Part shown: in pieces, positions 21,493-33,977 of the stretch
Position numbering within the stretch: the first letter of the stretch is position 1
Layout: every line of letters starts with the position of its first letter
DNA from: Marinibacterium anthonyi
Lineage (GTDB): Bacteria; Pseudomonadota; Alphaproteobacteria; Rhodobacterales; Rhodobacteraceae
NCBI GenBank assembly: GCA_003217735.2
Contig: CP031586.1
Coordinates: 1-64,000 of the forward strand
Reading direction: 5' to 3'
Length of the DNA: 64,000 bases
Translations under genes and position numbers: made by a program
The notes under the pieces: generated by a model
Databases searched by the model: none
What the model was told of the DNA's origin: nothing
Seen by the model: the letters and a program-made list of their open reading frames with translations, nothing else

Positions 21493-22632
21493 ATGATCAG
21501 CGATCTGACACGGCGCGCTTTCATGAAACGCAGCGCCATGGTGGCCGGTGCGGGGCTGGTGATGCCCGGCGCCCTGCAAGCCGGGGTCCCGTCGAAATTG
21601 CAATGGACGGCGGCGGATGTCGGGTCGTCCGGCTATATCGAGGCCACGGCGATCGCCAACGCCTTGATCGAACAGCATGGATCGCGCGTCCGCGTGGTGC
21701 CGTCGGGCACGTCCGTCGGGCGGATGATGCAGCTGAAACAGGGCCGCGTGTCGCTGGGGTTCCTGGCCAACGAGGCCTATTTCGCCTCCGAGGCGCTGTA
21801 CGATTTCTCGACCCGTGAATGGGGGCCGCAGGACCTGCGCGCGCTGATGGGACGCGAGGCGCTGTTCGGCATCGTGACCACGGCCAAGTCCGGCATCACG
21901 TCCATCGCCGATCTGAAGGGCCGCCGGGTGGCGCTGATCCAGGCGCACCCGTCGACCAACTTCAAGGTGCAGGGCGTGCTGGCCTTTGCCGGTCTCGGCT
22001 GGGACGATGTCGAGGCGATCGAGGTGCCGGGCTATTCCGCCGGTCTGCAGGCCGTTCTGGACGGGGCCGTCGATGCCGCGGGCGCCGTGGTCGGCGCATC
22101 CGTCCTGCGCGAGATCGAGGCCAGCCCCGATGGCATCGGCTGGCTGCCCGTGCCCGCCGACGACGCCGAAGGCTGGGCCCGGATCAACGCCAGCGCGCCG
22201 CTTTTCGCGCCGTCGCTGATGACCAGCGGGCCGGGCGCGTCCGAAGAGAACCCCGTGCCGCTGGTGGGCTATCGCTATCCGATCCTGTCGGTCTATGCCG
22301 AGGCGTCCGTCGACGATGTCTATGACATGACCAAGGCCATCGTGGAAGGCTACGACCTGTACAAGGACGCCGCCCCGGTGATGCCGGCCTATGACGTGAA
22401 CAAGGCGGGCCATCCGCCCTACGACACGCCCACCCACGACGGGGCAAAGAAGTACTTCGAGGACATCGGCATCTGGACCGAAGCGGACGAGACCTGGAAC
22501 ACCAACCGCCTGGCGCGGCTGGCCCGGGTGCAGGAAGGCTGGGCCGCGGCGACCGAGGCGGCCGACGACCAGGGCGTCGCCGACAAGGATTGGCCCGCCT
22601 TCTGGGACCAGTACCGCGCCGACCATCTCTGA
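21493..22632 (+). CDS. TAXI-family TRAP transporter solute-binding protein
   Basis: A 379-residue periplasmic receptor for a TAXI-type TRAP transporter. It begins with a twin-arginine leader (TRRAFMKRSAMVAGAGLVM) cleaved near ALQA. The mature region shows the TAXI pattern: DVGSSGYIEATAIANALIEQ, VVPSGTSVGRMMQLKQGRV and, near residue 140, DLKGRRVALIQAHPSTNFK. A GGAGAGGAGG leader supports the start. It follows the flavoprotein gene after 125 bp and precedes the fused permease. Probably binds the organic acid degraded by the operon. Confidence 0.85.
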   Translation: MISDLTRRAFMKRSAMVAGAGLVMPGALQAGVPSKLQWTAADVGSSGYIEATAIANALIEQHGSRVRVVPSGTSVGRMMQLKQGRVSLGFLANEAYFASEALYDFSTREWGPQDLRALMGREALFGIVTTAKSGITSIADLKGRRVALIQAHPSTNFKVQGVLAFAGLGWDDVEAIEVPGYSAGLQAVLDGAVDAAGAVVGASVLREIEASPDGIGWLPVPADDAEGWARINASAPLFAPSLMTSGPGASEENPVPLVGYRYPILSVYAEASVDDVYDMTKAIVEGYDLYKDAAPVMPAYDVNKAGHPPYDTPTHDGAKKYFEDIGIWTEADETWNTNRLARLARVQEGWAAATEAADDQGVADKDWPAFWDQYRADHL

Positions 22633-22641
22633 GCCCTTCAT

Positions 22642-22667
22642 GGCGGGACCGGTGCGCCGGTCCTGCC
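22642..22667 (+). terminator. Stem-loop between TAXI receptor and permease genes
   Basis: The core is GGACCGG-TGCG-CCGGTCC (22646-22663), extended by GGC/GCC at the base. It lies 10 bases past the receptor stop codon and has no T-run. Confidence 0.6.
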
Positions 22668-22692
22668 CGTACTCCCCGATTTCAGGTAAGCC

Positions 22693-24630
22693 ATGTCCGA
22701 TGCCGCAATGACCGATACAGATTTCCCGGGCGAGGATCTGCGCCCCGAAACGTCCCGCCTGCATCAGACCCGGTTCGTCGTCTTTCCGCTGACGGCGGTG
22801 GCGCTGCTGCTGGTGGCCAACCAGGTGTTCCTGCTGCGCATCGGGGGGTTCCAGATGCCCAGCACGGGGCTGTATTACGCCCTGATCGGGTTCTTCTTCG
22901 CGATCCTCTTCCTGACCTTCCCGATGCGCAGGGCCGACGACCGGCGCGTGCCGGTCTATGACTGGGCCTTCGCCGCGGTCTCGCTGGGGGCGGGGGTCTA
23001 TTTCGCGTCGATCTCGGGGGATATCATCAACCGGGGCTGGGATTACAAGGCGCCCGACATGCCCACGCTGCTGGCGCTGGCGCTGTTCCTGCTGGTGCTC
23101 GAAGGGCTCAGGCGGACGGGGGGCATGGTGCTGTTCACCATCTGCCTGGCCTTCGCGGTCTTCCCGACCTTCGCCGATCACCTGCCCGGCCTTCTGTGGG
23201 GCAGCCAGTACACCCCGCGCGAGACGCTGTCGGCCTACGTGATGGGCTCGGGCGCGATCGTCGGCGTGCCGGTGCAGGTGGTCAGCGAGCTGGTCATCGG
23301 CTACCTGCTGTTCGGCGCCGCGCTGACGGTGACCGGGGGTGGCAGGTTCTTCATGGATTTCGCCAGCGCGCTCATGGGCCGTGCCCGGGGCGGGCCGGCC
23401 AAGGTCTCGATCATCTCGTCGGGGCTGTTCGGATCGCTGTCCGGTTCGGTCGTGTCCAACGTGATCTCGACCGGGGCGTTCACCATTCCCACCATGAAAC
23501 GCTGCGGCTACCCGGCCTCCTACGCCGGCGCGGTCGAAGCCTGCGCCTCGACCGGGGGGTCGATCATGCCGCCGGTGATGGGGGCGGCGGGTTTCATCAT
23601 GGCGTCGTTCCTGAACGTACCTTATTCCACCGTTGTTTCGGCCGCGATCCTGCCGGCGGTGCTGTTTTATGCCGCGCTGCTGTTGCAGGTCGACGCCTAT
23701 GCCGCCCGCAACGGGCTGGAAGGCATGGACGAATCCGAATTGCCCCGTCTTGGCCCGACCCTGCGCGAGGGCTGGCCGCACATGGTGGGCGTGCTGACGC
23801 TGGTGGCGCTGATCCTGTTCTTCCACATGGAACGGTCCGCGCCGTTCTTCTCGGCCGGGTTCATGCTGGCCATCTCGATCCTGCGCGCCCCGCGCGACAC
23901 GTGGACCATGATCCGCGACACGCTGGTCGAAACCGGGCGCAGCGGCGCCTACCTTTTCGGCATCCTCGCCGGCATCGGTCTGATCGTCGGCTCACTTTCG
24001 ATCACCGGTGTCGGCAGCTCGGTTTCGCGCGAACTGGTGCATGCGGCGGGCGACAACCTGTACCTGCTGCTGGTCTTCGGCGCGCTGACCAGCTTCGTTC
24101 TGGGCATGGGGATGACGGCCAGCGCCTGCTACATCTTCCTGGCGATCATCCTTGGCCCCGCGCTGACATCGCAGGGGCTGGACGTGGTGGCGAGCCACCT
24201 GTTCATCCTTTACTGGGGCATGCTGTCCTACATCACCCCGCCCGTGGCGCTGGCCGCCGTGGTGGCGGCGGGGATATCGGGCAGCGGCGGGCTGCAGACC
24301 GGCATCCGCGCCATGCGGCTGGGATCGGTGCTGTTCATCCTGCCCTTCGCCTTCGTGCTGAACCCGGCCCTGATCCTGCGGGGCGATGCCCTGCACGTGA
24401 TCCAGGCCATCGGCACCGCCGGTCTGGCGATCTGGTACATCTCGGCGGCCTTCGAGGGGTGGCTGTATTTCGCCGGACGCCTGTCCATGGCGCTGCGCGT
24501 GGCGGCGATGATCGCGGGGCTGGCGCTGTTGATCCCCGAGGGCAACAGCGACGTCATCGGCCTGGCGCTGGCCGTCGCCGTGATGGCCGTGGCACAGTGG
24601 CAGAAACGCCGGAGCACGGCTGCCGCATGA
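22693..24630 (+). CDS. TRAP transporter fused permease (4TM/12TM, DctQ-DctM fusion)
   Basis: A 645-residue inner-membrane protein with about 16 hydrophobic segments: a short N-terminal DctQ-like part (to about residue 190) and a long DctM-like part. The DctM part has SGSVVSNVISTGAFTIPTMK and EACASTGGSIMPPVMGAA (about 250-305), and the second half of the inverted repeat has LGMGMTASACYIFLAIILGP and YITPPVALAAVVAA. The motifs fit Na+-driven carboxylate uptake. It is partnered with the TAXI receptor and overlaps the downstream enolase-superfamily gene by 4 bp. Confidence 0.9.
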   Translation: MSDAAMTDTDFPGEDLRPETSRLHQTRFVVFPLTAVALLLVANQVFLLRIGGFQMPSTGLYYALIGFFFAILFLTFPMRRADDRRVPVYDWAFAAVSLGAGVYFASISGDIINRGWDYKAPDMPTLLALALFLLVLEGLRRTGGMVLFTICLAFAVFPTFADHLPGLLWGSQYTPRETLSAYVMGSGAIVGVPVQVVSELVIGYLLFGAALTVTGGGRFFMDFASALMGRARGGPAKVSIISSGLFGSLSGSVVSNVISTGAFTIPTMKRCGYPASYAGAVEACASTGGSIMPPVMGAAGFIMASFLNVPYSTVVSAAILPAVLFYAALLLQVDAYAARNGLEGMDESELPRLGPTLREGWPHMVGVLTLVALILFFHMERSAPFFSAGFMLAISILRAPRDTWTMIRDTLVETGRSGAYLFGILAGIGLIVGSLSITGVGSSVSRELVHAAGDNLYLLLVFGALTSFVLGMGMTASACYIFLAIILGPALTSQGLDVVASHLFILYWGMLSYITPPVALAAVVAAGISGSGGLQTGIRAMRLGSVLFILPFAFVLNPALILRGDALHVIQAIGTAGLAIWYISAAFEGWLYFAGRLSMALRVAAMIAGLALLIPEGNSDVIGLALAVAVMAVAQWQKRRSTAAA

Positions 24631-25709
24631 AGATCGACGGCTGGTCGGTCGAGGCGGTCGAACACCGCAACCTCGACCCGGAATGGCACTATGCTGGGCG
24701 CGACGTGCCCCGTCTGCCGGGGCTGCGCGTGGCGCTGCGGGCGGGGGCGTGGATGGGCGAAGGCTATGCCCCGTTCCTGCCGCACCTGGATGCCAGCGCG
24801 CAGGCGCTGACGGAAACGGGCCGCGCCCTTGCCGCCCCGATGACGGGGGCGGATGTTCTGGACCTGGATGGCGCGCTGGCGCGTCTTGGCCCCTGTGGTC
24901 GGGCGCTGAACGCGGCGCGCTCGGCCGTCGAGATGGCGTTGCTGGACCTGGCGGCGCGGGCGCGCGGGCAAAGCGTGGCGCGGATGCTGGGGGGCGTGCC
25001 CGTCCCGGTGCCGGTGCTGCGGATCATCCCGGTCAAGACGCCCGATCGCATGGCCGCGATCGCGGCAGCGCTGGTGGCCGAGGGCTATGGCGCATTGAAG
25101 CTGAAGGCGACCGGGACCATCGGGGACGACATCGCCCGCATCGCTGCCGTGCGCGCGCGCGTCGGGGATGACGTGGTGCTGACCGTCGATGCCAACCAGG
25201 CCTGCGATGTGATCGGCGCGCTGGCCTTCGAGACCGCGCTGCGCCCGCTTGGCGTCTGGTCGCTGGAACAACCCGTGCCCGCGGGCGATCCCGCCGTTCT
25301 GGCGCAGGTCCGGGCCGGGGCGGAAACGCGGATCGAAGCGGACGAGGCCCTGTTCACCCAACCCGACCTGGACCGTCTGCTGGCCGCAAGGGCCCCCGAC
25401 GGGATCAGCCTGAAACTGGCCCGGTCCGGCGGGCTGCTGCCGTCCCTGCAGATGGCGCGCGCGGCGCAGGCCCGGGGCGTTCATGCGCGCATCGGCACCG
25501 CCTTCGGCGGCCCGCTGGTGACGCTGGCCACCGCGACGCTGGCGGCGCTGCATGCCTGTTCAGGCCCCGCCGAATGCGCCGAGTTCACCCATTTCAACGA
25601 CGAGGATCACCTTTGGCCCGACATCCGGGCCGGCGTTCTGACCCTGCCGGACTCCCCCGGTTTCGGCCAGGTGCGCCGGACGCCCTGGCAGGCGCCCTGG
25701 CTGGACTAG
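24627..25709 (+). CDS. Mandelate racemase/muconate lactonizing enzyme family protein
   Basis: A 360-residue enolase-superfamily enzyme. Catalytic Lys pair K158/K160 in ALKLKATG, metal ligands D188 (VDANQA), E214 (LEQPV) and D239 (EADEA), and K263 (SLKLARSGG) opposite. This set fits the MLE subgroup (cycloisomerases, dipeptide epimerases, N-succinylamino acid racemases or OSBS-like enzymes). It overlaps the permease gene by 4 bp and is the last gene of the long operon, so it likely epimerises or cycloisomerises the imported acid before CoA activation. The N-terminal capping domain (1-125) is complete. Confidence 0.85.
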   Translation: MKIDGWSVEAVEHRNLDPEWHYAGRDVPRLPGLRVALRAGAWMGEGYAPFLPHLDASAQALTETGRALAAPMTGADVLDLDGALARLGPCGRALNAARSAVEMALLDLAARARGQSVARMLGGVPVPVPVLRIIPVKTPDRMAAIAAALVAEGYGALKLKATGTIGDDIARIAAVRARVGDDVVLTVDANQACDVIGALAFETALRPLGVWSLEQPVPAGDPAVLAQVRAGAETRIEADEALFTQPDLDRLLAARAPDGISLKLARSGGLLPSLQMARAAQARGVHARIGTAFGGPLVTLATATLAALHACSGPAECAEFTHFNDEDHLWPDIRAGVLTLPDSPGFGQVRRTPWQAPWLD

Positions 25710-25712
25710 ACC

Positions 25713-26261
25713 TCAGGGAATTTCGGATTCGAAGATCGTGGCGGGCGGTGGCGGGCGGCGGCGCGGCGTCGTTTCGCCCTTCAGTTCGCGCAGGTACGCC
25801 ATCGACCCGCGCGACACCTTCTCCATCAGGCGCATCAGCTCGCAGCGTTCTTCCTGTGTCAGTTCCGTCAGCATGTGGCGGTTGCGTTCCCGCGACGCGG
25901 CCAACACGTCCCGAACCAGCTTCTGGCCCGCCGGCGTCAGGCGCAGGTTCACGCTGCGCTTGTCGTCGGGGTTCGCTTCGCGCGCGATGAATCCGCGATC
26001 TTCCAGCACGGAAACCGTGCGGCTCATCTGGCTTTTCTGCACGCCCGCACGTTTCGCCAGCACATGCAGCGGCGCGACGCCCAGGAAATCCAGCACGGCC
26101 ATGGCGCGCCAGTCATGGGTGTTCAGGTCGAAATGGGGCTTCAGGCCCAGCAGCGCAATGCGCGAAGACAGACCGGCAAGGCGCTGAAGATTATAGGAAA
26201 ACAGATACCGGATGTCGTCGTCGTTGTGGCCAATTCCATCAATATCGTCGTTGGTGGTCAA
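25713..26261 (-). CDS. MarR-family transcriptional regulator (operon-facing)
   Basis: A 182-residue winged-helix regulator. The core (about residues 40-140) has VLDFLGVAPLHVLAKRAGV, the recognition helix QKSQMSRTVSVLEDRGFI and the wing DDKRSVNLRLTPAGQKL. The C-terminal tail is Pro/Arg-rich. No ATG fits; TTG 26261 is chosen because a GGGGGCGA site precedes it and a promoter (26297-26324) lies 36 bp upstream. It converges on the enolase-superfamily gene 3 bp away and probably represses the 15.1-25.7 kb operon. A shared AATGGCAAC motif at 14945 and 26312 supports that weakly. Confidence 0.75.
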   Translation of the reverse strand: MTTNDDIDGIGHNDDDIRYLFSYNLQRLAGLSSRIALLGLKPHFDLNTHDWRAMAVLDFLGVAPLHVLAKRAGVQKSQMSRTVSVLEDRGFIAREANPDDKRSVNLRLTPAGQKLVRDVLAASRERNRHMLTELTQEERCELMRLMEKVSRGSMAYLRELKGETTPRRRPPPPATIFESEIP

Positions 26262-26421: not shown

Positions 26422-27336
26422 ATGAAGAACCTCGATCTGTTCCGTTCCTTTGCCGTGCTGGGCGAGCTGTGCAATTTCTCGGCCGCCGCCGCACGGCTGG
26501 GGATCGCGCAGCCCACGCTGACCAAGCAGATCGCCCGGCTTGAAGACCTTCTGGGCACCCAGCTGTTCAACCGGTCCCGGCAGGGCACCGAGCTGACCGA
26601 GTTCGGCCGTCAGTTCCTGGCCGAGGTGCAGCCGCTGGTGCGCGAGGCGGACCGGATCTGGGACCTGGGCCAGCGGATGGCGGGGGGCGAGACCGGGCGC
26701 CTGGCCGTCGGCTTCACCTTTTCGGCGCTCGAGGTCATGACCCGCGCCCTGATCGCCTATCGCGACGCCTACCCCGAGGTCGAGCTGACCTTCGACGACA
26801 TATCCTCGCGGTCGCAATTGCCGATGGTGCGCGACCGGCAGCTGGACGTGGCCTTTGCCCGCTGGCCCGGCGCGCCGGACCTGGCGTCGCGCATGGTGTC
26901 GCGCGACCGGCTGGCCTTTGTCTTTCCGGCCAGCCTTGCCGACCGGATCGACGACATCGACAGCCCGGCGGTTCGCAACCTGCCGTTCGTGCGGCTGAAG
27001 AAATCCGTCGCGCCCGGGTTCGAAGGCGCGGTCGAACGGCTGTTCGCGTGGAAAGAGCTTAACCCCGTGGTGACCCATTGGGTCAACGAGAGCCTGGTGC
27101 AGCTGCGCATGGTATCGGCCGGGTTCGGCGTTGCGGTCATGCATGAATCGGCGCTGGTTGGCATCATCGACAGCCACGCGATCATTGCCCAGGGCATCGA
27201 AGGTCCGGCGCTGGCCTGGCAGGTGGGCATGTTCTGGCGCAAGGACGAACGGAACCCGGTGGTCTGGAATTTCCTGCGCATCGCGCAGGAGACCATGGGC
27301 CTGCCGCAGGGCAGTGCCGGCGCGCCTCATTCCTAA
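26422..27336 (+). CDS. LysR-family transcriptional regulator
   Basis: A 304-residue LTTR. The N-terminal helix-turn-helix reads LFRSFAVLGELCNFSAAAA then IAQPTLTKQIARLEDLLG (about 5-45). The effector domain (90-300) has two Rossmann-like lobes with VELTFDDISSRSQL and RQLDVAFARWPGAP. ATG 26422 has GGGGAG 4 bases upstream; the in-frame ATG at 26329 lacks a site. It is divergent from the MarR gene and lies 175 bp upstream of, and in the same direction as, the flavin monooxygenase operon, its most likely target. Confidence 0.9.
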   Translation: MKNLDLFRSFAVLGELCNFSAAAARLGIAQPTLTKQIARLEDLLGTQLFNRSRQGTELTEFGRQFLAEVQPLVREADRIWDLGQRMAGGETGRLAVGFTFSALEVMTRALIAYRDAYPEVELTFDDISSRSQLPMVRDRQLDVAFARWPGAPDLASRMVSRDRLAFVFPASLADRIDDIDSPAVRNLPFVRLKKSVAPGFEGAVERLFAWKELNPVVTHWVNESLVQLRMVSAGFGVAVMHESALVGIIDSHAIIAQGIEGPALAWQVGMFWRKDERNPVVWNFLRIAQETMGLPQGSAGAPHS

Positions 27337-27511
27337 ACCTATCACAGATTGAACATCTTTGCGGTTCAAAGCGACCCTGTCCGGGCCCATGTTCCCTATC
27401 GACCAGGAAACAAAGCTTCATGCGCGGCGACGGGTGGTGGGCGCGATGGGCATAAGCCCCCCGCTCAGGCAGACCGGACGCCCCCGCCGTCACAGGAGAC
27501 AGGATCGCCCC

Positions 27512-28861
27512 ATGACCAGACAGATGCACCTTGCCGCTTTCATGAACGCGGGGCCGATGGGCACCACCGGCTGGCGTCACAAGGATGCCGATCCGGGCTT
27601 TCTGACGGCAGCCTATTACAAGAAGGCCGCCCGCATCCTTGAAGCCGCCCGCTTTGACCTGGCCTTCATTCCCGACGCGTTGTCGATGCCCCGGTCGCTG
27701 GGCGGGTCGTTCCGGCCGGCGGTCGAATGGGGATCGGGGACGCCGCGCATCGATCCGATGACCGTGCTGGGCGTAATGGCGGGGGTGACGGAGCACCTGG
27801 GCCTCGCCGCCACGATATCGACCGGCTACCACGAACCCTATAACCTGGCGCGCACGCTGGGCACCTTCGATCACATGACCGACGGGCGCGCGGGCTGGAA
27901 CATCGTGACCTCGTTCCAGGATGCCGAGGCGCAGAATTTCGGCCAGGACAGGCTGCCCCCGCGCGAAGACCGCTATGCCCGCGCCGAAGAGGTGCTGCAG
28001 GCCACGACCCAGCTGTGGGACAGCTGGGATGACGACGTGATCTTCCAGGACAAGGACAGCGGGCATTTCGGCGATCCCGACAAGGTCCGGTCGGTCGATT
28101 ACGCGGGCGATTACGTCAAGACGCAGGGCCCCCTGGGCGTGCCGCGCCCGCCGCAGGGCTATCCGCTGCTGATCCAGGCCGGGGCGTCGCCGCGCGGGCG
28201 CGACTTTGCCGCCCGCTGGGCCGACGTGATCTTTTCCAGCGCCGAGTCGATGGAAAGCGCGGCCGCCTTCTACGCCGACATCAAGGCGCGGGCGAAGGCC
28301 CATGGCCGCGACCCGGACCAGGTCAAGATCCTGACCGCCGCCACCGTCGTGGTGGGCGACACGGACGCCGAAGCCATGGCCAAGCACGAGGCCTTTGCCG
28401 ACCTGGTCCACCCGCTGGCCGGGCTGTCGCGGCTGGCCTACCACGTGAACGTGGACCTGACGAAATACGACCTGGACGGGCCGCTGCCGACGCTGGAAGA
28501 GGTCGGCGTGCAGGGGCATTACGAAGAAGTCGTCGAATTCGCGCGTCGCGAGAACCTGACCGTGCGCGAGATCGGGCGCTGGTACGGGGCGCGCAGCGAA
28601 GGCAACATGATCGGTTCCGCGACGACCATCGCCGACAACATGGAACGCTGGATGGAGGCCGGGGCCTCGGACGGGTTCATGGTGCAGGCGACGCATCTGC
28701 CCGGCGCCTTCGAGGAATTCGCCGATTTCGTGGTGCCGGAACTGCAGCGGCGGGGCCTGCACCGGACGGAATACACCGGCCGCACCGCGCGCGAGACGCT
28801 GGGCCTGGACCGTCCGAAGCGGGACGAATGGAAGACCCGCGCGGCACCGGCTGGCGCATGA
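27512..28861 (+). CDS. LLM-class flavin-dependent monooxygenase (NtaA/SnaA/DszA family)
   Basis: A 449-residue two-component monooxygenase that uses reduced FMN supplied by a separate reductase. The NtaA/SnaA/DszA pattern is clear: LAAFMNAGPMGTTGWRHKD at the start, TISTGYHEPYNLARTLGTFD (about 107-126), GRAGWNIVTSFQDAEAQNFG (about 132-151), a long insertion with DDVIFQDKDSGHF, and LIQAGASPRGRDFAARWAD (about 225-243). Relatives cleave C-N or C-S bonds (nitrilotriacetate, EDTA, dibenzothiophene sulfone). No flavin reductase gene is adjacent. First of six co-directional genes, overlapping the rhodanese by 4 bp. A DszA-like reaction on a sulfur heterocycle is an attractive inference. Confidence 0.85.
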   Translation: MTRQMHLAAFMNAGPMGTTGWRHKDADPGFLTAAYYKKAARILEAARFDLAFIPDALSMPRSLGGSFRPAVEWGSGTPRIDPMTVLGVMAGVTEHLGLAATISTGYHEPYNLARTLGTFDHMTDGRAGWNIVTSFQDAEAQNFGQDRLPPREDRYARAEEVLQATTQLWDSWDDDVIFQDKDSGHFGDPDKVRSVDYAGDYVKTQGPLGVPRPPQGYPLLIQAGASPRGRDFAARWADVIFSSAESMESAAAFYADIKARAKAHGRDPDQVKILTAATVVVGDTDAEAMAKHEAFADLVHPLAGLSRLAYHVNVDLTKYDLDGPLPTLEEVGVQGHYEEVVEFARRENLTVREIGRWYGARSEGNMIGSATTIADNMERWMEAGASDGFMVQATHLPGAFEEFADFVVPELQRRGLHRTEYTGRTARETLGLDRPKRDEWKTRAAPAGA

Positions 28862-29742
28862 CCCGGGCGCCTGACCTGCCCGCGTCGCTGCTGGTCGATC
28901 CGGACTGGCTGGCCGACGCTGTTGAGCGCGTGGTGGTTCTGGATGCGTCCGTCGCGCGGATCGATCGGCCCGGCGGGGTGACCGGGTTCGCCTCGGGCGC
29001 GGATGTCTTTGCCGGGGAACACCTGCCCGGCGCGCAGTTGGCGGACCTGTTCGGCGGTTTCTCGGACATGGATGCGCCGCTGTCCTTCACCCGCCCGTCG
29101 CCCGAGGCGCTGGAGCGCAGCGCCCGTGCGTTGGGTGTGAACAATGACAGCGTGGTGGTGGTCTATGACCGGCTGGGCGGGGCCTATGCCGCGCGGATCT
29201 GGCTGCTGTTTCACAGCGTCGGCTTCGACCGGGTGCGGGTGCTGAACGGCGGGCTTCAGGCGTGGAAAACCTCTGGATATGCCGTCGAAACCGGGCCCGC
29301 CGCGTCGGTCGCCCCGGGTGATTTTAGCGTCGGGCCACTGCGTGCGGATTTCGTTACCACCGACGACGTGGCGCGGATGGTTTCTGATGGTGCTGACGCG
29401 ATGCAGCCGCTGGTCTGCGGGTTGCGGCCGCCGCAATTCACCGGCGAAGGCAGCGACGATCCGCGGCTGGGCCATATCCCGGGCAGCGTGAACCTGCCGT
29501 TTCCCGAGCTGTTGGATGGTGACGGCAAGCTGGACCTGGACCGTTTCCAGGACCGGTTCAACGCGCTGGATCTGGCGATGGATGCCGTGCCGGTGCTTTA
29601 TTGCGGCGGTGGCATCAATGCGGCCGGGCTGGCGCTGGCCCTGGCCGCGACCGGGCACCGCGAATTCCGGGTCTATGACGATTCAATGAGCGGCTGGACG
29701 GCGGACCCGGCCCGCCCCGTGGCCCGTGGAGACGCACCATGA
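28858..29742 (+). CDS. Sulfurtransferase (tandem rhodanese domains)
   Basis: A 294-residue thiosulfate/3-mercaptopyruvate sulfurtransferase-like protein. Two rhodanese domains are seen. The N-terminal one (about 10-140) ends VVVVYDRLGGAYAARIWLLF without the active Cys, and the C-terminal one (about 165-290) carries the persulfide loop LYCGGGINA (Cys about 249). It would accept sulfane sulfur or move it to an acceptor such as cyanide or thiol. Cytosolic, ATGA overlaps on both sides. Its place between a flavin monooxygenase and an amidase implies the pathway releases sulfur. Confidence 0.85.
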   Translation: MTRAPDLPASLLVDPDWLADAVERVVVLDASVARIDRPGGVTGFASGADVFAGEHLPGAQLADLFGGFSDMDAPLSFTRPSPEALERSARALGVNNDSVVVVYDRLGGAYAARIWLLFHSVGFDRVRVLNGGLQAWKTSGYAVETGPAASVAPGDFSVGPLRADFVTTDDVARMVSDGADAMQPLVCGLRPPQFTGEGSDDPRLGHIPGSVNLPFPELLDGDGKLDLDRFQDRFNALDLAMDAVPVLYCGGGINAAGLALALAATGHREFRVYDDSMSGWTADPARPVARGDAP

Positions 29743-31130
29743 CCCGACCGACCATGCTGAGTGGTGCCGAGCTGACCGAAGGCTATCGGCGGGGCAATTT
29801 CACCCCCGTCGATGTCGCCGAAGCGGCGTTGAAGGTGATCACCGGCCCGCTTGATGCGCTGAACGGTCTGTCCAGCCATGATGCCGGCCTGACGCTGGAC
29901 GCCGCCCGCGCCAGCGCCGCGCGCTGGAAAGCGGGTGCGCCGCTGGGGCCGCTGGATGGCGTCCCGATCAGCTTCAAGGACAGTTTCCACATCGGCGGAC
30001 TGCCGCGCTGGCACGGGACGGCCTGTCATTCGGGCACGGTGTCTGCGGCGGATGCGCTGCCGGTGGCGCGGGCGCGCGAGGCGGGAATGATCCCGACCTG
30101 CAAGACCAGCATGCCCGATTTCGCGATGATCATGTCCGGGCTCAGCTCGCAGCACGGGGTGATCCGCAATGCCTGGGATCACGATACCAGCCCCGGCGGG
30201 TCGTCCTCGGGCGCGGGGCCCAGCGTCGTGCTGGGGGCCGCGGCGGTGGCGTTGGGGACCGACATGGTGGGGTCGGTGCGGCTGCCCGCGGCGCTCAGCG
30301 GGCTGGCGTCGATCAAGCCGACGCAGGGGCGGATCGCCTATGATCCGCCGGGATCCTACCGCAGTGCCGGGCCGATGGCGCGCTGCGTGGCGGATGTGTC
30401 GCTGACGCTTGCGGCGCTGGGGCGGTTTTCGCACGGGGATTTCGTGTCCGCGTCGGGGGCCTTTCAGCCCGATGACGTGCCCGCGCGGCTGGACGGCAAG
30501 CGGGTCGCGCTGTGGCGGCAGGCCGGGTGGGGTGACGCGCCGGATGCCGAGACCCGCGCGGCCCTCGACAAGGCGGCGGCGCAGATGTCGGACCTGGGCG
30601 CCGAGATCGTCGAGATCGACGATCTGGCGGCCGATCCGGACGATTACATGGCGATCCACTGGAACATGCTGTACGTCGGCGCGCCCGATTACTTCGGGCT
30701 GAACGCCAAGGCGCGGGGGCTGATCCATCCCGATATCGGGGCGATGTACGACGGGCTGCTTGGCCAGTCGGCGATCCTGGCCGCCGGCATGATCCGGCGG
30801 ATCAACGCGGCGGCGATCCGCATCGCCAGGCAGCTGGATCCGTTCGATCATGTCCTGTCGCCCGCGCTGCCGGTCCGGTCCTTCCCGGCCGACCTGACCT
30901 GCCCCGACCCGTCGCTGGGCGCCGCCAGCCATCAGGCCTTTGCCTGCTGGTTCAACCAGATCGGCTGGCCCGCTGCCACGGTGCCGGTGCATCAGCCCGA
31001 TGATGGCGGCGTGCCGGTGTCGGTGCAGATCGCCGGAAAGCGGTTCGAGGACGCCGGCGTGCTGGGCGTGGCCGCGCGGCTGGAAGCCCTGCGCGGGTTC
31101 ACCATTCAATGGCCCGAGGCGGCGGCATGA
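29739..31130 (+). CDS. Amidase signature family enzyme
   Basis: A 463-residue amidase with a complete Ser-cisSer-Lys triad: K80 (SFKDSF), cis-Ser S155 (PGGSSSGAG) and nucleophile S179 (GTDMVGSVRLPA). The family includes GatA, acetamidase and many heterocycle-derived amide hydrolases. It is longer than a minimal AS domain but without extra domains. Overlaps both neighbours by 4 bp. In this operon it is suited to hydrolysing an amide or formamide formed after oxidative ring opening. Not GatA, since gatB/C are absent and the context is catabolic. Confidence 0.9.
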   Translation: MTRPTMLSGAELTEGYRRGNFTPVDVAEAALKVITGPLDALNGLSSHDAGLTLDAARASAARWKAGAPLGPLDGVPISFKDSFHIGGLPRWHGTACHSGTVSAADALPVARAREAGMIPTCKTSMPDFAMIMSGLSSQHGVIRNAWDHDTSPGGSSSGAGPSVVLGAAAVALGTDMVGSVRLPAALSGLASIKPTQGRIAYDPPGSYRSAGPMARCVADVSLTLAALGRFSHGDFVSASGAFQPDDVPARLDGKRVALWRQAGWGDAPDAETRAALDKAAAQMSDLGAEIVEIDDLAADPDDYMAIHWNMLYVGAPDYFGLNAKARGLIHPDIGAMYDGLLGQSAILAAGMIRRINAAAIRIARQLDPFDHVLSPALPVRSFPADLTCPDPSLGAASHQAFACWFNQIGWPAATVPVHQPDDGGVPVSVQIAGKRFEDAGVLGVAARLEALRGFTIQWPEAAA

Positions 31131-31816
31131 CGGTTCTGGTCGTTTTCGACGTCGACGGCACGCTGCTGGATACGGCGGGGCTGCATCACGACCTGGCGAC
31201 AAAGGTGCTGGCCGACGACGGGCTGGACGTGGCGTTTCAGCCCTGGGGCGCGTACCGCCATTACACCGACCTGGGCGTGCTGGACGAATTGTACAACCAT
31301 GCGCGCGGACGCGGCATCACACCCGAGGAGCTGGCCCGCTATGACCGGCTGTACGAGGCGGCGTTGCGCGACCACCTGGCGACCAACGCAATCGGCGAGA
31401 TCGCCGGTGCGGGGGCGTTACTGGAGGGTCTGTTCGCGATGGAGCACGTGGCGGTGGCCTTTGCCACCGGATCGCTGCGGCGCATGGCGGGGGTGAAGCT
31501 GTCTTTGCTGGGTCTCGATGCGGGCGACCTGGCGCTGGCGACAGGGGGCGAACACCTGACCCGCGAGGCGATTGTCGAGGACGCCATGGCGCAGGCCATG
31601 GGCAACGAGGTGCCCGAACGCGTCGTCATCCTGGGCGACGGCAAATGGGACCAGGTCGCCGCCGACCGCCTGGGCCTGGCCTTTGTCGCGCTTGAAACCG
31701 GGGCGCATGTCTTTGGCACCGGGCCCGTCGAAACCATGAAAGATTTCAGAACGCTGGATGCGCAGGGGCTGGTCGCCCTCGCCGCGCCCCGCGCCCGAAC
31801 AGGAGCCCCCGCATGA
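31127..31816 (+). CDS. HAD-superfamily hydrolase (phosphatase-like)
   Basis: A 229-residue Haloacid Dehalogenase-type enzyme. Motif I FDVDGTLLDT (residues 7-16), a cap domain of subclass I type (about 20-95), motif II Ser/Thr in FATGSLRRM and motif IV VILGDGKWDQVAADRLGL. It probably dephosphorylates a small phosphate ester. A kinase (ThiM) is encoded two genes downstream, so it could act on a phosphorylated hydroxyethyl compound or serve as a salvage counterpart. ATGA overlap with amidase and RidA genes. Confidence 0.85.
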   Translation: MTVLVVFDVDGTLLDTAGLHHDLATKVLADDGLDVAFQPWGAYRHYTDLGVLDELYNHARGRGITPEELARYDRLYEAALRDHLATNAIGEIAGAGALLEGLFAMEHVAVAFATGSLRRMAGVKLSLLGLDAGDLALATGGEHLTREAIVEDAMAQAMGNEVPERVVILGDGKWDQVAADRLGLAFVALETGAHVFGTGPVETMKDFRTLDAQGLVALAAPRARTGAPA

Positions 31817-32205
31817 CCCGCAACACCATCACCACAGGCAGCGCCTACGAAGAGCTGATGGGCTATGCCCGCGCCGTGATCGACAACGGGCAGGTCTTTG
31901 TTTCGGGCTGTTCCGGGCTGCCCCGCGATGGCAGCGCCCCGGGCGATGCCGCAACCCAGTTCGCCCGTGCCGTCGAGAAGGTCGAAGGCATCCTGGCACA
32001 GGCGGGCGCGTCGCTGGGCGACGTGGTGCGCAGCCGGGTCTACCTGACCGACGATGCCGACTGGGACCCGTTGGTCCGCGCCCATGGCCTTGCCTTCGCG
32101 CCCGTCCGCCCGGCCTGCACCATGGTGCAGGTCAGCCGCCTCATCGATCCGGACATGCGGGTCGAACTTGAGGTGACCGCAATCCTGCCCACCGGCACCG
32201 CATAA
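31813..32205 (+). CDS. RidA (YjgF/YER057c/UK114) family protein
   Basis: A 130-residue RidA-fold protein, a trimer that hydrolyses reactive enamines/imines or aminoacrylates to the ketone and ammonia. Expected segments: FVSGCSGLPRDGSAPGDAA near 30, QFARAVEKVEGILAQAGASL, VRSRVYLTDDADWD (key Arg in the VRSRVYL strand) and RPACTMVQVSRLIDPDMRVELE. RutC of the oxidative Rut pyrimidine pathway is a relative that also stands beside an LLM monooxygenase and an amidase. Overlaps the HAD gene by 4 bp. Confidence 0.9.
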   Translation: MTRNTITTGSAYEELMGYARAVIDNGQVFVSGCSGLPRDGSAPGDAATQFARAVEKVEGILAQAGASLGDVVRSRVYLTDDADWDPLVRAHGLAFAPVRPACTMVQVSRLIDPDMRVELEVTAILPTGTA

Positions 32206-32253
32206 TCACACCTGAACGCGCCGAAGACGCGTATCCCCCAACAGGAGCTCCTG

Positions 32254-33039
32254 ATGAAAGAACTGTCCTGGAACGACCCCGCAGTCCGCAACGAACTGAC
32301 CCGGCTGAAGCAGATGAAGCCGTTCTGCTATGGCCTGACCAACTACATCGCCGCCAACCTGTCGGCCAACGTGCTGCTGGCCGTGGGCGCGGGCCCGGCG
32401 ATCGGCACGGCGATGGACTGGCCCAGCGTCTTTGGCGGCCATGCCCACGCGGTCTGGATCAACGCGGCCAGCCTGATGAGCTGCGGCCCCGACGAGATCC
32501 GGCTGGCGGCGAAATCCGCCCATGAAGGCGGTGTGCCCTGGGTCCTGGACCCGGTGGCCGTGGGCGCGGGGGCGGCGGAATACGATGCCGTCGTGCGCGG
32601 CCTGCTGGAATTCAAGCCGACCGCGATCCGCGGCAACGCGTCCGAACTGATCGCGCTGGCGGGCGGTGACGGTGGCGGGCAGGGGGTGGAAACCACCATG
32701 ACCTCGGACCAGGCCGTGCCCTTCCTGGCCAAGGTCGCCGCAGAGATCGGCACCATCGCGGCTGTCAGCGGTCCGGTGGATTACATCACCGACGGCACAT
32801 CGACCTACGCGGTCGGCGGCGGCGACGAGCGGCTGACCCAGGTGACCGGTGCCGGCTGTTCGCTGGGCGCGCTGATGGCGGGCATGCTGGCCAATGCCGA
32901 GGATCCGATCATGGCGGTCGTCGCGGCCCACGCGGTCTATGCCGAGGCCGCCAACCGGGCGAAATCCGCCGTCGGCACGGGCAGCTTCGCGGTGTCCTTC
33001 CTGGATCACCTGTCGCTGATCGACCCGTCCGAAGCGTGA
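32254..33039 (+). CDS. thiM: Hydroxyethylthiazole kinase
   Basis: A 261-residue ribokinase-like enzyme that phosphorylates 4-methyl-5-(2-hydroxyethyl)thiazole, the thiazole half of thiamine. Recognisable family features: CYGLTNYIAANLSANVLLAVGA near the start (ThiM versions start similarly with TN-x-V-x3-x-AN), PWVLDPVAVGAG, IRGNASELIALAG (the family RGNxSE motif) and the anion-hole TGAGCSLGALMAG with its Cys. An AGGAG site precedes the ATG. It lies 48 bp after ridA. No thiD, thiE or other thiamine gene is near, and no TPP riboswitch pattern is visible upstream, so it may serve a catabolic or salvage role peculiar to this operon. Confidence 0.9.
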   Translation: MKELSWNDPAVRNELTRLKQMKPFCYGLTNYIAANLSANVLLAVGAGPAIGTAMDWPSVFGGHAHAVWINAASLMSCGPDEIRLAAKSAHEGGVPWVLDPVAVGAGAAEYDAVVRGLLEFKPTAIRGNASELIALAGGDGGGQGVETTMTSDQAVPFLAKVAAEIGTIAAVSGPVDYITDGTSTYAVGGGDERLTQVTGAGCSLGALMAGMLANAEDPIMAVVAAHAVYAEAANRAKSAVGTGSFAVSFLDHLSLIDPSEA

Positions 33040-33045
33040 CGTCGG

Positions 33046-33070
33046 CGCGGGCGGGGATGCTCCGCCCGCG
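33046..33070 (+). terminator. Stem-loop after thiM
   Basis: Perfect 9-bp arms CGCGGGCGG / CCGCCCGCG with loop GGATGCT, 7 bases past the thiM stop codon. Confidence 0.65.
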
Positions 33071-33119: not shown

Positions 33120-33147
33120 CCGGGGCGCCGGCGCGACGGCGCCCCGG
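33120..33147 (+). terminator. Second stem-loop after thiM
   Basis: Perfect 10-bp arms CCGGGGCGCC / GGCGCCCCGG with an 8-base loop. Together with the hairpin at 33046 it probably closes the six-gene operon. Confidence 0.65.
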
Positions 33148-33245: not shown

Positions 33246-33977
33246 GTGGGTGCCACCGCGATCCTCGAACAGGGGTTCATCGATTATGCCGCCGTCACCC
33301 TGGGCGCCGTCGATGTCCTGGTCGAAGTCATGGCCCGCAGCGACGGCGAACTGCGCGCGCTGGTCGAGGATCACATCCTGGCCCGCCCGGACGTGGCGCA
33401 GGTGGACATCCACCCCTATGTCGGCCTGTCCTACCAATTGCCGGTCTGGGAGGACGTGCAGCGCGACGACGAAGCCGAAATCGAGATCTACGAGTCCGAG
33501 GCCGACCCGCTGGATGAAACCGATAGGCGGCTGGTCGCCCTGCTGAGCCGCAACGGCCGCGCCACCTTCCAGAGCCTGGCCGAGGCGCTGGAGATATCGG
33601 AAAGCTATGTCCGCAAGCGCTACAAGGCGCTGGTCGGGCGGGGCGACATGCAGGTGCATGCGCTGACCAACCCGGTCAGCCTGGGCTATGATACGCATTG
33701 CTGGCTGAAGATGCGCCTGGATCCGGGCCAGTCGCTGGCGGCCGCGACGCGCCGGATCGCCGCGCTGGAACACGTGGCCTATGTTGCCGTCTGTACGGGC
33801 CGCGCCGATCTGCTGGTCGAGGTCATCTGCCGCAACAAGGCGGAACTGAGGGATTTCATCGGCGAGCGGCTGGGCCGGGTGGCGGGCGTGCGCTGTACCG
33901 AGAGCCTGCTGTGCAGCCGGCTGTTCTATCGCAGCGTGCCCTACAACCTGTTCGACGGATACAGCGCCACCGGCTGA
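33246..33977 (+). CDS. Double Lrp/AsnC-type regulator lacking its first DNA-binding domain
   Basis: A 243-residue protein made of one and a half Lrp units. Residues 1-62 are the end of an AsnC ligand-binding domain (VDVLVEVMARSDGELRALVE, then DVAQVDIHPYVGLSYQ). Residues 85-140 are a complete helix-turn-helix (LDETDRRLVALLSRNGRATF, ESYVRKRYKALVGRG). Residues 150-235 are a second ligand domain. Tandem Lrp proteins normally start with a helix-turn-helix, so about 80 N-terminal residues are missing. The only start is GTG 33246 with AGGAG directly abutting it, and the frame closes at 33213-33215. It is either a decayed gene or a trimmed regulator. Confidence 0.65.
   Translation: MGATAILEQGFIDYAAVTLGAVDVLVEVMARSDGELRALVEDHILARPDVAQVDIHPYVGLSYQLPVWEDVQRDDEAEIEIYESEADPLDETDRRLVALLSRNGRATFQSLAEALEISESYVRKRYKALVGRGDMQVHALTNPVSLGYDTHCWLKMRLDPGQSLAAATRRIAALEHVAYVAVCTGRADLLVEVICRNKAELRDFIGERLGRVAGVRCTESLLCSRLFYRSVPYNLFDGYSATG

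Follow-up and report, generated by a model that had tools for sequence, protein, structure and literature searches.

The window analysed here (bases 1-64000 of contig C2 in the 6.8-Mb genome of Marinibacterium anthonyi) carries a six-gene operon in which a DszA-related flavin monooxygenase and a rhodanese are joined to a ThiM-type kinase. In a preliminary description, the set was read as a Rut-like pathway for a thiazole or related ring. We confirmed its six genes, their coordinates, the four 4-bp overlaps and the 48-bp gap that follows them before thiM, and assigned the families with Pfam and NCBIfam; all six proteins score above the cut-off of their own Pfam family. The operon comprises the following features:

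26422..27336, + strand: LysR-type regulator (Pfam LysR_substrate, 93.6 bits; HTH_1, 68.3 bits)
27329..27345, + strand: candidate operator, a 17-bp box of sequence ATTCCWWAASYWATCAC that overlaps the LysR gene at its end
27512..28861, + strand: FMNH2 (reduced flavin mononucleotide)-dependent monooxygenase of the NtaA/DmoA/DszA family, core gene (Pfam Bac_luciferase, 171.6 bits)
28858..29742, + strand: two-domain rhodanese, mercaptopyruvate-sulfurtransferase-like, core gene (Pfam Rhodanese, 77.3 bits, two stretches)
29739..31130, + strand: amidase-signature hydrolase (Pfam Amidase, 218 bits)
31127..31816, + strand: HAD-superfamily hydrolase, probable small-molecule phosphatase (Pfam HAD_2, 37.1 bits)
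31813..32205, + strand: RidA-family protein, probable imine/enamine deaminase (Pfam Ribonuc_L-PSP, 76.6 bits)
32254..33039, + strand: ThiM-type hydroxyethylthiazole kinase of an operon-linked subfamily, core gene (Pfam HK, 203.2 bits; cut-off 27)
33047..33069, + strand: first hairpin 3' of thiM (10-bp stem in the minimum-energy fold; no U tract)
33120..33147, + strand: second hairpin 3' of thiM (11-bp stem in the minimum-energy fold; no U tract)

The LysR gene lies immediately upstream of the monooxygenase gene and belongs to the operon unit. Its reading frame starts at 26422 or 26329, and homologues align from about residue 32, the Met codon at 26422. The two strong stem-loops that had been reported to close the operon are present, but their role as a terminator is unproven because the hairpin region folds only modestly better than expected from its composition (z -2.04; 8 of 200 shuffles as good) and a U tract is lacking.

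The distribution of the operon was examined through its monooxygenase. A pattern-based scan of the genomes of 84,980 species returned 20 loci, of which seven are 69-89% identical and 13 no more than 44%; its exact peptide patterns missed three close copies found elsewhere (genomes G1059, G928 and G1058), so that counts of carriers are lower bounds. The seven close loci belong to Acetobacter estunensis (two genomes), Sinirhodobacter populi, Acidisoma silvae, Acidisoma cellulosilyticum, Falsigemmobacter intermedius and Pararobbsia silviterrae. In a plasmid collection with 44 monooxygenase records, two sister Pseudonocardia plasmids, both with the ant Apterostigma as their source, reach 68.7%; the other 42 are below 60%, and the matches listed among them are at most 45.0% identical. 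Among 249 genomes sampled from the Acidisoma silvae family were the three further close copies (69-72%), the two Acidisoma genomes themselves and two copies at about 50%. No copy of at least 69% beyond those of the window and Pararobbsia was present in samples of 295 genomes from the window's family, 398 from the phylum and 200 from the Pararobbsia family, and a ThiM search of 385 genomes of the window's class at E <= 1e-70 returned the window only. Because close copies are so few in these scans and samples, the thiM-monooxygenase-rhodanese unit is rare and patchy; it is partly plasmid-borne. A phage origin was rejected: the 10 matching phage records all stay below 60%, and the five listed are at most 38.1% identical.

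Twelve loci were compared, the window and 11 others, which represent at least 11 species (L017 and L018 are one species; L038, the sister plasmid of L037, was excluded from the count). Their hosts are Rhodobacteraceae, Acetobacter, Acidisoma, Pararobbsia, a Pseudonocardia plasmid and genomes G1059, G928 and G1058. The preliminary description had named, as evidence that would refute it, homologous operons that always lack thiM and rhodanese; the opposite was found, since both adjoin the monooxygenase (68.7-89% identical, window included) in 12 of 12 loci, a linkage that rules out a chance gene order. Seven loci have the order LysR-monooxygenase-rhodanese-amidase-(HAD)-(RidA)-ThiM and five the order ThiM-monooxygenase-rhodanese(-amidase), and across these two orders and two phyla the operonic ThiMs are 57-84% identical to that of the window. 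An amidase homologue is present in nine loci, RidA in six and the homologous HAD in four, so the earlier pairing of HAD with ThiM, the latter being present in all 12, is not constant. These counts depend in part on the sequence available: L089 stops 220 bases past the rhodanese, where an amidase is not assessable, and L091 begins 178 bases before the monooxygenase and shows one side only. L094 was left out of the Pfam scans, and flank genes were Pfam-scanned selectively. Pairwise identities were compared among monooxygenase, ThiM, rhodanese and amidase: each of the six gene pairs is correlated (r 0.81-0.94), and none of 2000 permutations reached the observed value in any pair, as expected of genes that travel together, with a contribution from host relatedness as well. 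Around six further loci with a monooxygenase of about 50% identity, no homologue of ThiM, amidase, HAD or RidA was found within 10-16.5 kb. Since ThiM and rhodanese accompany every close monooxygenase and no ThiM was found in the sequence around the roughly 50% loci, kinase, monooxygenase and rhodanese form the core, whereas amidase, RidA and HAD are optional.

The candidate operator also follows gene order. ATTCCWWAASYWATCAC has no other match in the 64-kb window at up to two mismatches (0.02 expected), and it occurs once upstream of the monooxygenase in all seven LysR-monooxygenase loci, with no mismatch in six and one in L020. None of the remaining five loci contains it when up to two mismatches are allowed; one of them is L089, whose more distant LysR (48% identical) adjoins ThiM. 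Because the box was derived from these same loci, its recurrence is in part built in, which does not apply to its uniqueness and position. In all six other loci of the LysR-monooxygenase order, a LysR homologue 57-84% identical to that of the window stands directly upstream of the monooxygenase.

The kinase scores 210 bits against NF006830 (cut-off 180) and 200 bits against the equivalog model TIGR00694, below its cut-off of 256.4. In Staphylococcus aureus ThiM, the thiazole is contacted by N19, V21, G61, V90, T186, G187 and C190 of one chain and by P37, A38 and M39 of the neighbouring chain, and D88, K115, E120 and N117 handle Mg and ATP (PMC4785402). N19, P37, A38, D88, V90, N117, E120, T186, G187 and C190 are identical in all 12 operonic ThiMs; position V21 is Val or Ile, and K115 is Arg in the nine checked, as it is in 10 ordinary ThiMs. 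This ordinary set combined the protein of L047 with nine of 18 listed matches, from which the operonic copy and any partial or weak match had been excluded, and it includes the second ThiM of Sinirhodobacter. Two contacts separate the groups: Met39Ile and Gly61Ala (S. aureus numbering) occur in all 12 operonic ThiMs and in none of the 10 ordinary ones, which have Met and Gly throughout. Because most thiazole-contact and Mg/ATP residues are kept, the ring is probably intact when it is phosphorylated, and the retention of most thiazole contacts speaks for the earlier reading of ThiM. The operonic ThiMs constitute a distinct subfamily, which, we infer from these residues, would bind an intact hydroxyalkyl azole, and hence act before ring opening, with a tuned specificity. 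With the ThiM/ThiK of thiamine salvage they share the family, the catalytic Cys, the Mg and ATP residues and most thiazole contacts; they differ in the Ile and Ala at two contacts, in falling below the TIGR00694 cut-off, and in adjoining monooxygenase and rhodanese in all 12 loci, none of which gave a hit to ThiD, ThiO, ThiG or ThiE. A Burkholderia ThiM has been termed a hydroxyethylthiazole "degradation" enzyme, in an account that follows the pathway as far as the phosphate (PMC4475313).

The monooxygenase belongs to the NtaA/DmoA family (TIGR03860, 505.8 bits; cut-off 279.7; NCBIfam), and the nearest solved structure by sequence is BdsA/DszA (5tlc; E 1.3e-116). The BdsA FMN/O2 residues N135, V137, S139, R159, Y160 and H316 are invariant in 12 of 12 close enzymes, and so are F12, F56 and F246, which with H316 are counted as pocket residues. 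Asn135 steers O2 to flavin N5 in DszA, and Asn135, Ser139 and His316 are tied to N5-hydroperoxide chemistry (PMC11134501, PMC5819316). The operon enzymes thus share with the DszA/BdsA of the 4S pathway the family, these three residues and Phe12, Phe56 and Phe246; they differ at sulfone-site positions His20, Val248 and Val372, at Leu230 on the FMN side and at His156, and in being linked to ThiM and rhodanese instead of DszB and DszC, the partners of DszA. We read this pattern as N5-peroxide chemistry that would act on a smaller, more polar substrate. The same monooxygenase family includes riboflavin lyase and YtnJ, structures of which were among the sequence matches; YtnJ/CmoO-type enzymes act in S-alkylcysteine salvage. 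To our knowledge, neither system includes ThiM or a rhodanese of the 3-mercaptopyruvate sulfurtransferase (MST) type.

For the rhodanese, the best NCBIfam model is the MST model NF008557 (113.4 bits, below the equivalog cut-off of 250) and the best PDB sequence match is 1urh. It resembles SseA/MST in its two rhodanese domains and in a neutral CGGG loop like the CGSG of SseA and unlike the CRKG of bovine rhodanese; the active loop reads YCGGGIN in the window, and YCGGG is found in all 12 loci. It departs from SseA/MST in scoring under the equivalog cut-off, in a loop before GHIPG that is about four residues shorter by eye in the window's protein, and in the replacement of one substrate-binding Arg in 12 of 12 loci. 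The positions concerned were located by a mapping of human MST Arg188 and Arg197 onto SseA that we assume to be correct. In human MST, these two residues bind 3-mercaptopyruvate (PMC12926118). By eye, 11 of 12 loci (all but Pseudonocardia) have an Arg where Arg197 is likely to map, and the counterpart of Arg188 is Arg in none.

The amidase has Lys80, GGSSSG at 153 and VGSVR at 177, residues among which we take the Ser-Ser-Lys triad to lie; GGSS(S/A)G is present in eight of the nine amidases (not in G1058) and a GSVR/GSIR-type motif in all nine. DxDGT and GDGxWD are conserved in 4 of 4 HAD homologues, and Arg99, presumably the RidA arginine, is kept in five of the six RidA homologues.

The comparison with Rut concerned both membership and plan. 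In the Rut pathway, a luciferase-like monooxygenase opens a heterocycle, and an amide hydrolase, the isochorismatase-type RutB, and a RidA-type protein follow. The operon shares this overall plan, and in one relative, G1059, a YcdC/RutR-like regulator and an NCS1 permease are encoded upstream; the operon's hydrolase, however, is of the amidase-signature type, and it has a kinase and a rhodanese for which we know of no Rut counterpart. Membership in the Rut system was rejected, which corrects the earlier Rut comparison as far as membership goes: the RutA and RutC models give 67 and 38.6 bits against cut-offs of 498.3 and 169.1, and the hydrolase has Pfam Amidase as its only Pfam match. We therefore file the operon as a monooxygenase-led heterocycle operon that would work like Rut and is not a Rut system.

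Thiamine salvage, the textbook setting of ThiM, was examined with the genome's own ThiD, ThiO, ThiG and ThiE, for which tblastn gave no match in the window or in any of the 12 loci; the cluster encoding them served as the positive control. The reported lack of thiD and thiE is thus correct for the window but not for the genome, in which ThiD, ThiO, ThiG and ThiE are encoded in one cluster elsewhere (its ThiO-like oxidase scores 239.6 bits, just under the cut-off of 250.8). Because of this cluster salvage is not needed, and the earlier judgement that plain salvage explains the gene set poorly stands. Plain salvage is weakened further by a strong ThiG match in six of the seven operon-bearing genomes tested (ThiC was not sought). 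In the seventh, Falsigemmobacter, a 19.9-bit match over 39 positions exceeds the ThiG cut-off and yet is not a full gene. Six of these seven genomes have no strong PF02110 match other than the operonic ThiM, and in Sinirhodobacter an ordinary ThiM is present too. No Rfam family, the thiamine pyrophosphate riboswitch included, reached its gathering score in the window. As a separate observation, Acetobacter estunensis (G295:C82:266076-273651) carries on one contig a pair of ThiG genes that score equally, point in opposite directions and are separated by about 6 kb, either an inverted duplication or an assembly artefact.

Taken together, we propose, with a rough probability of 0.52, that the operon breaks down either the thiazole moiety of thiamine, 4-methyl-5-(2-hydroxyethyl)thiazole, or one of its very close analogues, and, as part of this explanation, that it has spread horizontally. 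In the order that we consider plausible, ThiM would phosphorylate the hydroxyethyl side chain of the intact ring and so trap the substrate, as its kept residues suggest. The DszA-type monooxygenase, supplied with FMNH2 by a separate reductase, would then attack the electrophilic ring carbon C2 through its N5-peroxyflavin and yield a thiazol-2-one or a ring-opened N-formyl or carbamoyl enethiol. The amidase would remove the C2 unit to leave an amino-enethiol, whose enamine or imine RidA would hydrolyse to a ketone and ammonia, giving 3-mercapto-2-pentanone 5-phosphate. From this alpha-mercaptoketone the rhodanese would take the sulfur as a persulfide, as MST does with 3-mercaptopyruvate, and HAD would finally remove the phosphate to give 5-hydroxy-2-pentanone. 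Phosphorylation, ring attack and sulfur transfer would be the core, while the amidase, RidA and HAD steps could be supplied by housekeeping enzymes or occur spontaneously, which would explain why these three genes are optional. The appeal of the scheme is that each gene would have one job and that the loss of C2 and then of nitrogen would produce the phosphate of 5-hydroxy-3-mercapto-2-pentanone. This mercaptoketone is a known intermediate of thermal thiamine breakdown, as in cooking (PMC6270652).

Several observations weigh against this proposal, beginning with the nature of its evidence, which is drawn from sequence throughout (gene content, conservation, linkage, residues and a common upstream box). 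The analogy with DszA is partial because of the five altered positions. Replacement of Leu230 by Ala abolishes BdsA activity, and His20 binds the sulfone (PMC5819316, PMC11134501); yet Leu230 is Ala or Ser in 12 of 12 operon enzymes and in 10 other family members chosen as an outgroup, and His20 falls in a two-residue gap between BdsA and the window protein. Furthermore, Arg replaces His156, Ser replaces Val248 in 12 of 12, and Ser or Thr replaces Val372 (Ser in the window). In every locus the rhodanese lacks, by eye, the counterpart of Arg188, one of the two residues that bind 3-mercaptopyruvate in human MST, a change that would suit a mercaptoketone without a carboxylate. The RidA arginine is replaced by Tyr in Falsigemmobacter, homologues of RidA and of the window's HAD are present in no more than six and four of the 12 loci, respectively, and the three-gene versions without an amidase (Pararobbsia and Pseudonocardia) need another route for the C2 unit. 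No transporter was common to the flank genes covered by the selective Pfam scan. The kinase itself is changed at two thiazole contacts in all 12 loci, and the true substrate of the operonic ThiM may for this reason differ from hydroxyethylthiazole.

This last point leads to a different ring degraded by the same logic, another small heterocycle with a hydroxyalkyl group for which ThiM would have been retuned: an oxazole, an imidazole, a thiazole with a 2-substituent or in oxidised form, or a natural product or xenobiotic that contains a thiazole. Met39Ile and Gly61Ala, which set the operonic ThiMs apart from the ordinary ones, speak for such retuning, and the rare, patchy and partly plasmid-borne spread suits a special substrate. 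A pyrazole and an imidazole analogue are further substrates of S. aureus ThiM (PMC4785402). The MST-type rhodanese in every locus, however, argues for sulfur in the substrate, and the other eight thiazole contacts are unchanged or, at one, Val or Ile; we regard a different ring as possible, at about one chance in four in our judgement. That the monooxygenase and hydrolases instead free hydroxyethylthiazole from a larger or damaged thiamine-like molecule, with ThiM returning its phosphate to thiamine synthesis, appears unlikely. Salvage is the textbook role of ThiM, the operonic copy is the sole strong kinase match in most of the genomes tested, the window's genome has ThiE, and the Falsigemmobacter ThiM could serve salvage because no full-length ThiG match exists there. 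Against this stand the strong ThiG matches in the other six genomes, the ordinary ThiM that Sinirhodobacter keeps beside the operonic one and the lack of a riboswitch at gathering score in the window, and a sulfur-abstracting rhodanese would have no evident place.

The remaining alternative, which we consider the least probable, is sulfur assimilation from an organosulfur compound cleaved by the DszA-type enzyme, with ThiM acting on an unrelated alcohol or carried as a passenger. ThiM-family kinases are regarded as promiscuous, and in three of the six loci with a monooxygenase of about 50% identity (L061-L063, Pararobbsia family) the enzyme is paired with a related MST-like rhodanese and an ATP-binding cassette (ABC) importer of NMT1 type and no ThiM (the importer was Pfam-scanned fully in L063 and partly in L061 and L062). 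These three loci show that monooxygenase and rhodanese can go without the thiazole kinase, which also weighs against the thiazole proposal; their operon type probably serves another organosulfur compound. In the 12 close loci, in contrast, the presence of ThiM throughout, in two phyla and two gene orders and at 57-84% identity, is not that of a passenger, and the amidase, RidA and a single ammonium channel suggest that nitrogen is involved too.

Genes that accompany the operon in its relatives fit the needs (FMNH2 and import) and by-products (ammonia and phosphate) of the proposed thiazole breakdown, each in one or two loci. Directly after thiM, Acetobacter has an SsuE-like FMN reductase (scanned in L017) and Acidisoma silvae (L020) an ammonium-channel protein, at the place of which A. 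cellulosilyticum (L022) has an open reading frame of equal length. In Pararobbsia, a IIB-type HAD stands directly before thiM and gave no BLAST match to the HAD of the window at the thresholds used. G1059 carries its NCS1-family permease and YcdC/RutR-like TetR regulator upstream of thiM and in the orientation of that gene, with about 760 bases between permease and thiM, and Pseudonocardia has, immediately upstream, an ABC importer whose binding protein is of the NMT1 type. Two more luciferase-like monooxygenases follow the operon of Falsigemmobacter on the opposite strand (L021:8790-11128).

In the window itself, other genes flank the operon. A separate unit with tripartite ATP-independent periplasmic (TRAP) transport genes lies upstream (21493-26258), with the following features:

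21493-22632: TAXI-type TRAP solute receptor (Pfam/NCBIfam profiles)
22693-24630: fused TRAP permease (Pfam/NCBIfam profiles)
ending at 25709: enolase/mandelate-racemase-like open reading frame (identity by eye)
25713-26258, strand opposite to the TRAP unit: MarR regulator (Pfam/NCBIfam profiles)

Directly 3' of the operon, 33246-33977 encodes an AsnC/Lrp-family regulator of unusual layout, which the AsnC ligand-binding model matches twice, best after the helix-turn-helix and a second time probably before it.

In the open-access literature, which was covered in part and with most subscription journals and the older work on thiamine-degrading soil bacteria outside the coverage, we found no thiazole-degrading gene cluster and no genes assigned to the further fate of the thiazole fragment. 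Tentatively, and at somewhat less than an even chance in our estimate, the operon would be the first set of genes for cleaving the vitamin B1 thiazole ring, with a kinase-primed substrate, N5-peroxyflavin opening of hydroxyethylthiazole phosphate and harvest of the sulfur from an alpha-mercaptoketone by a dedicated sulfurtransferase, carried between phyla on plasmids and chromosomes. Hydroxyethylthiazole is commercially available, and the predictions are testable now. If the proposal is true, a thiazole oxygenase primed by a kinase could offer a starting point for the degradation of thiazole-based drugs and pesticides, and ThiM would no longer be a marker of salvage in every genome. Microbes that destroy thiamine leave its thiazole fragment behind, and the fate of this half of vitamin B1 would become testable through one operon.

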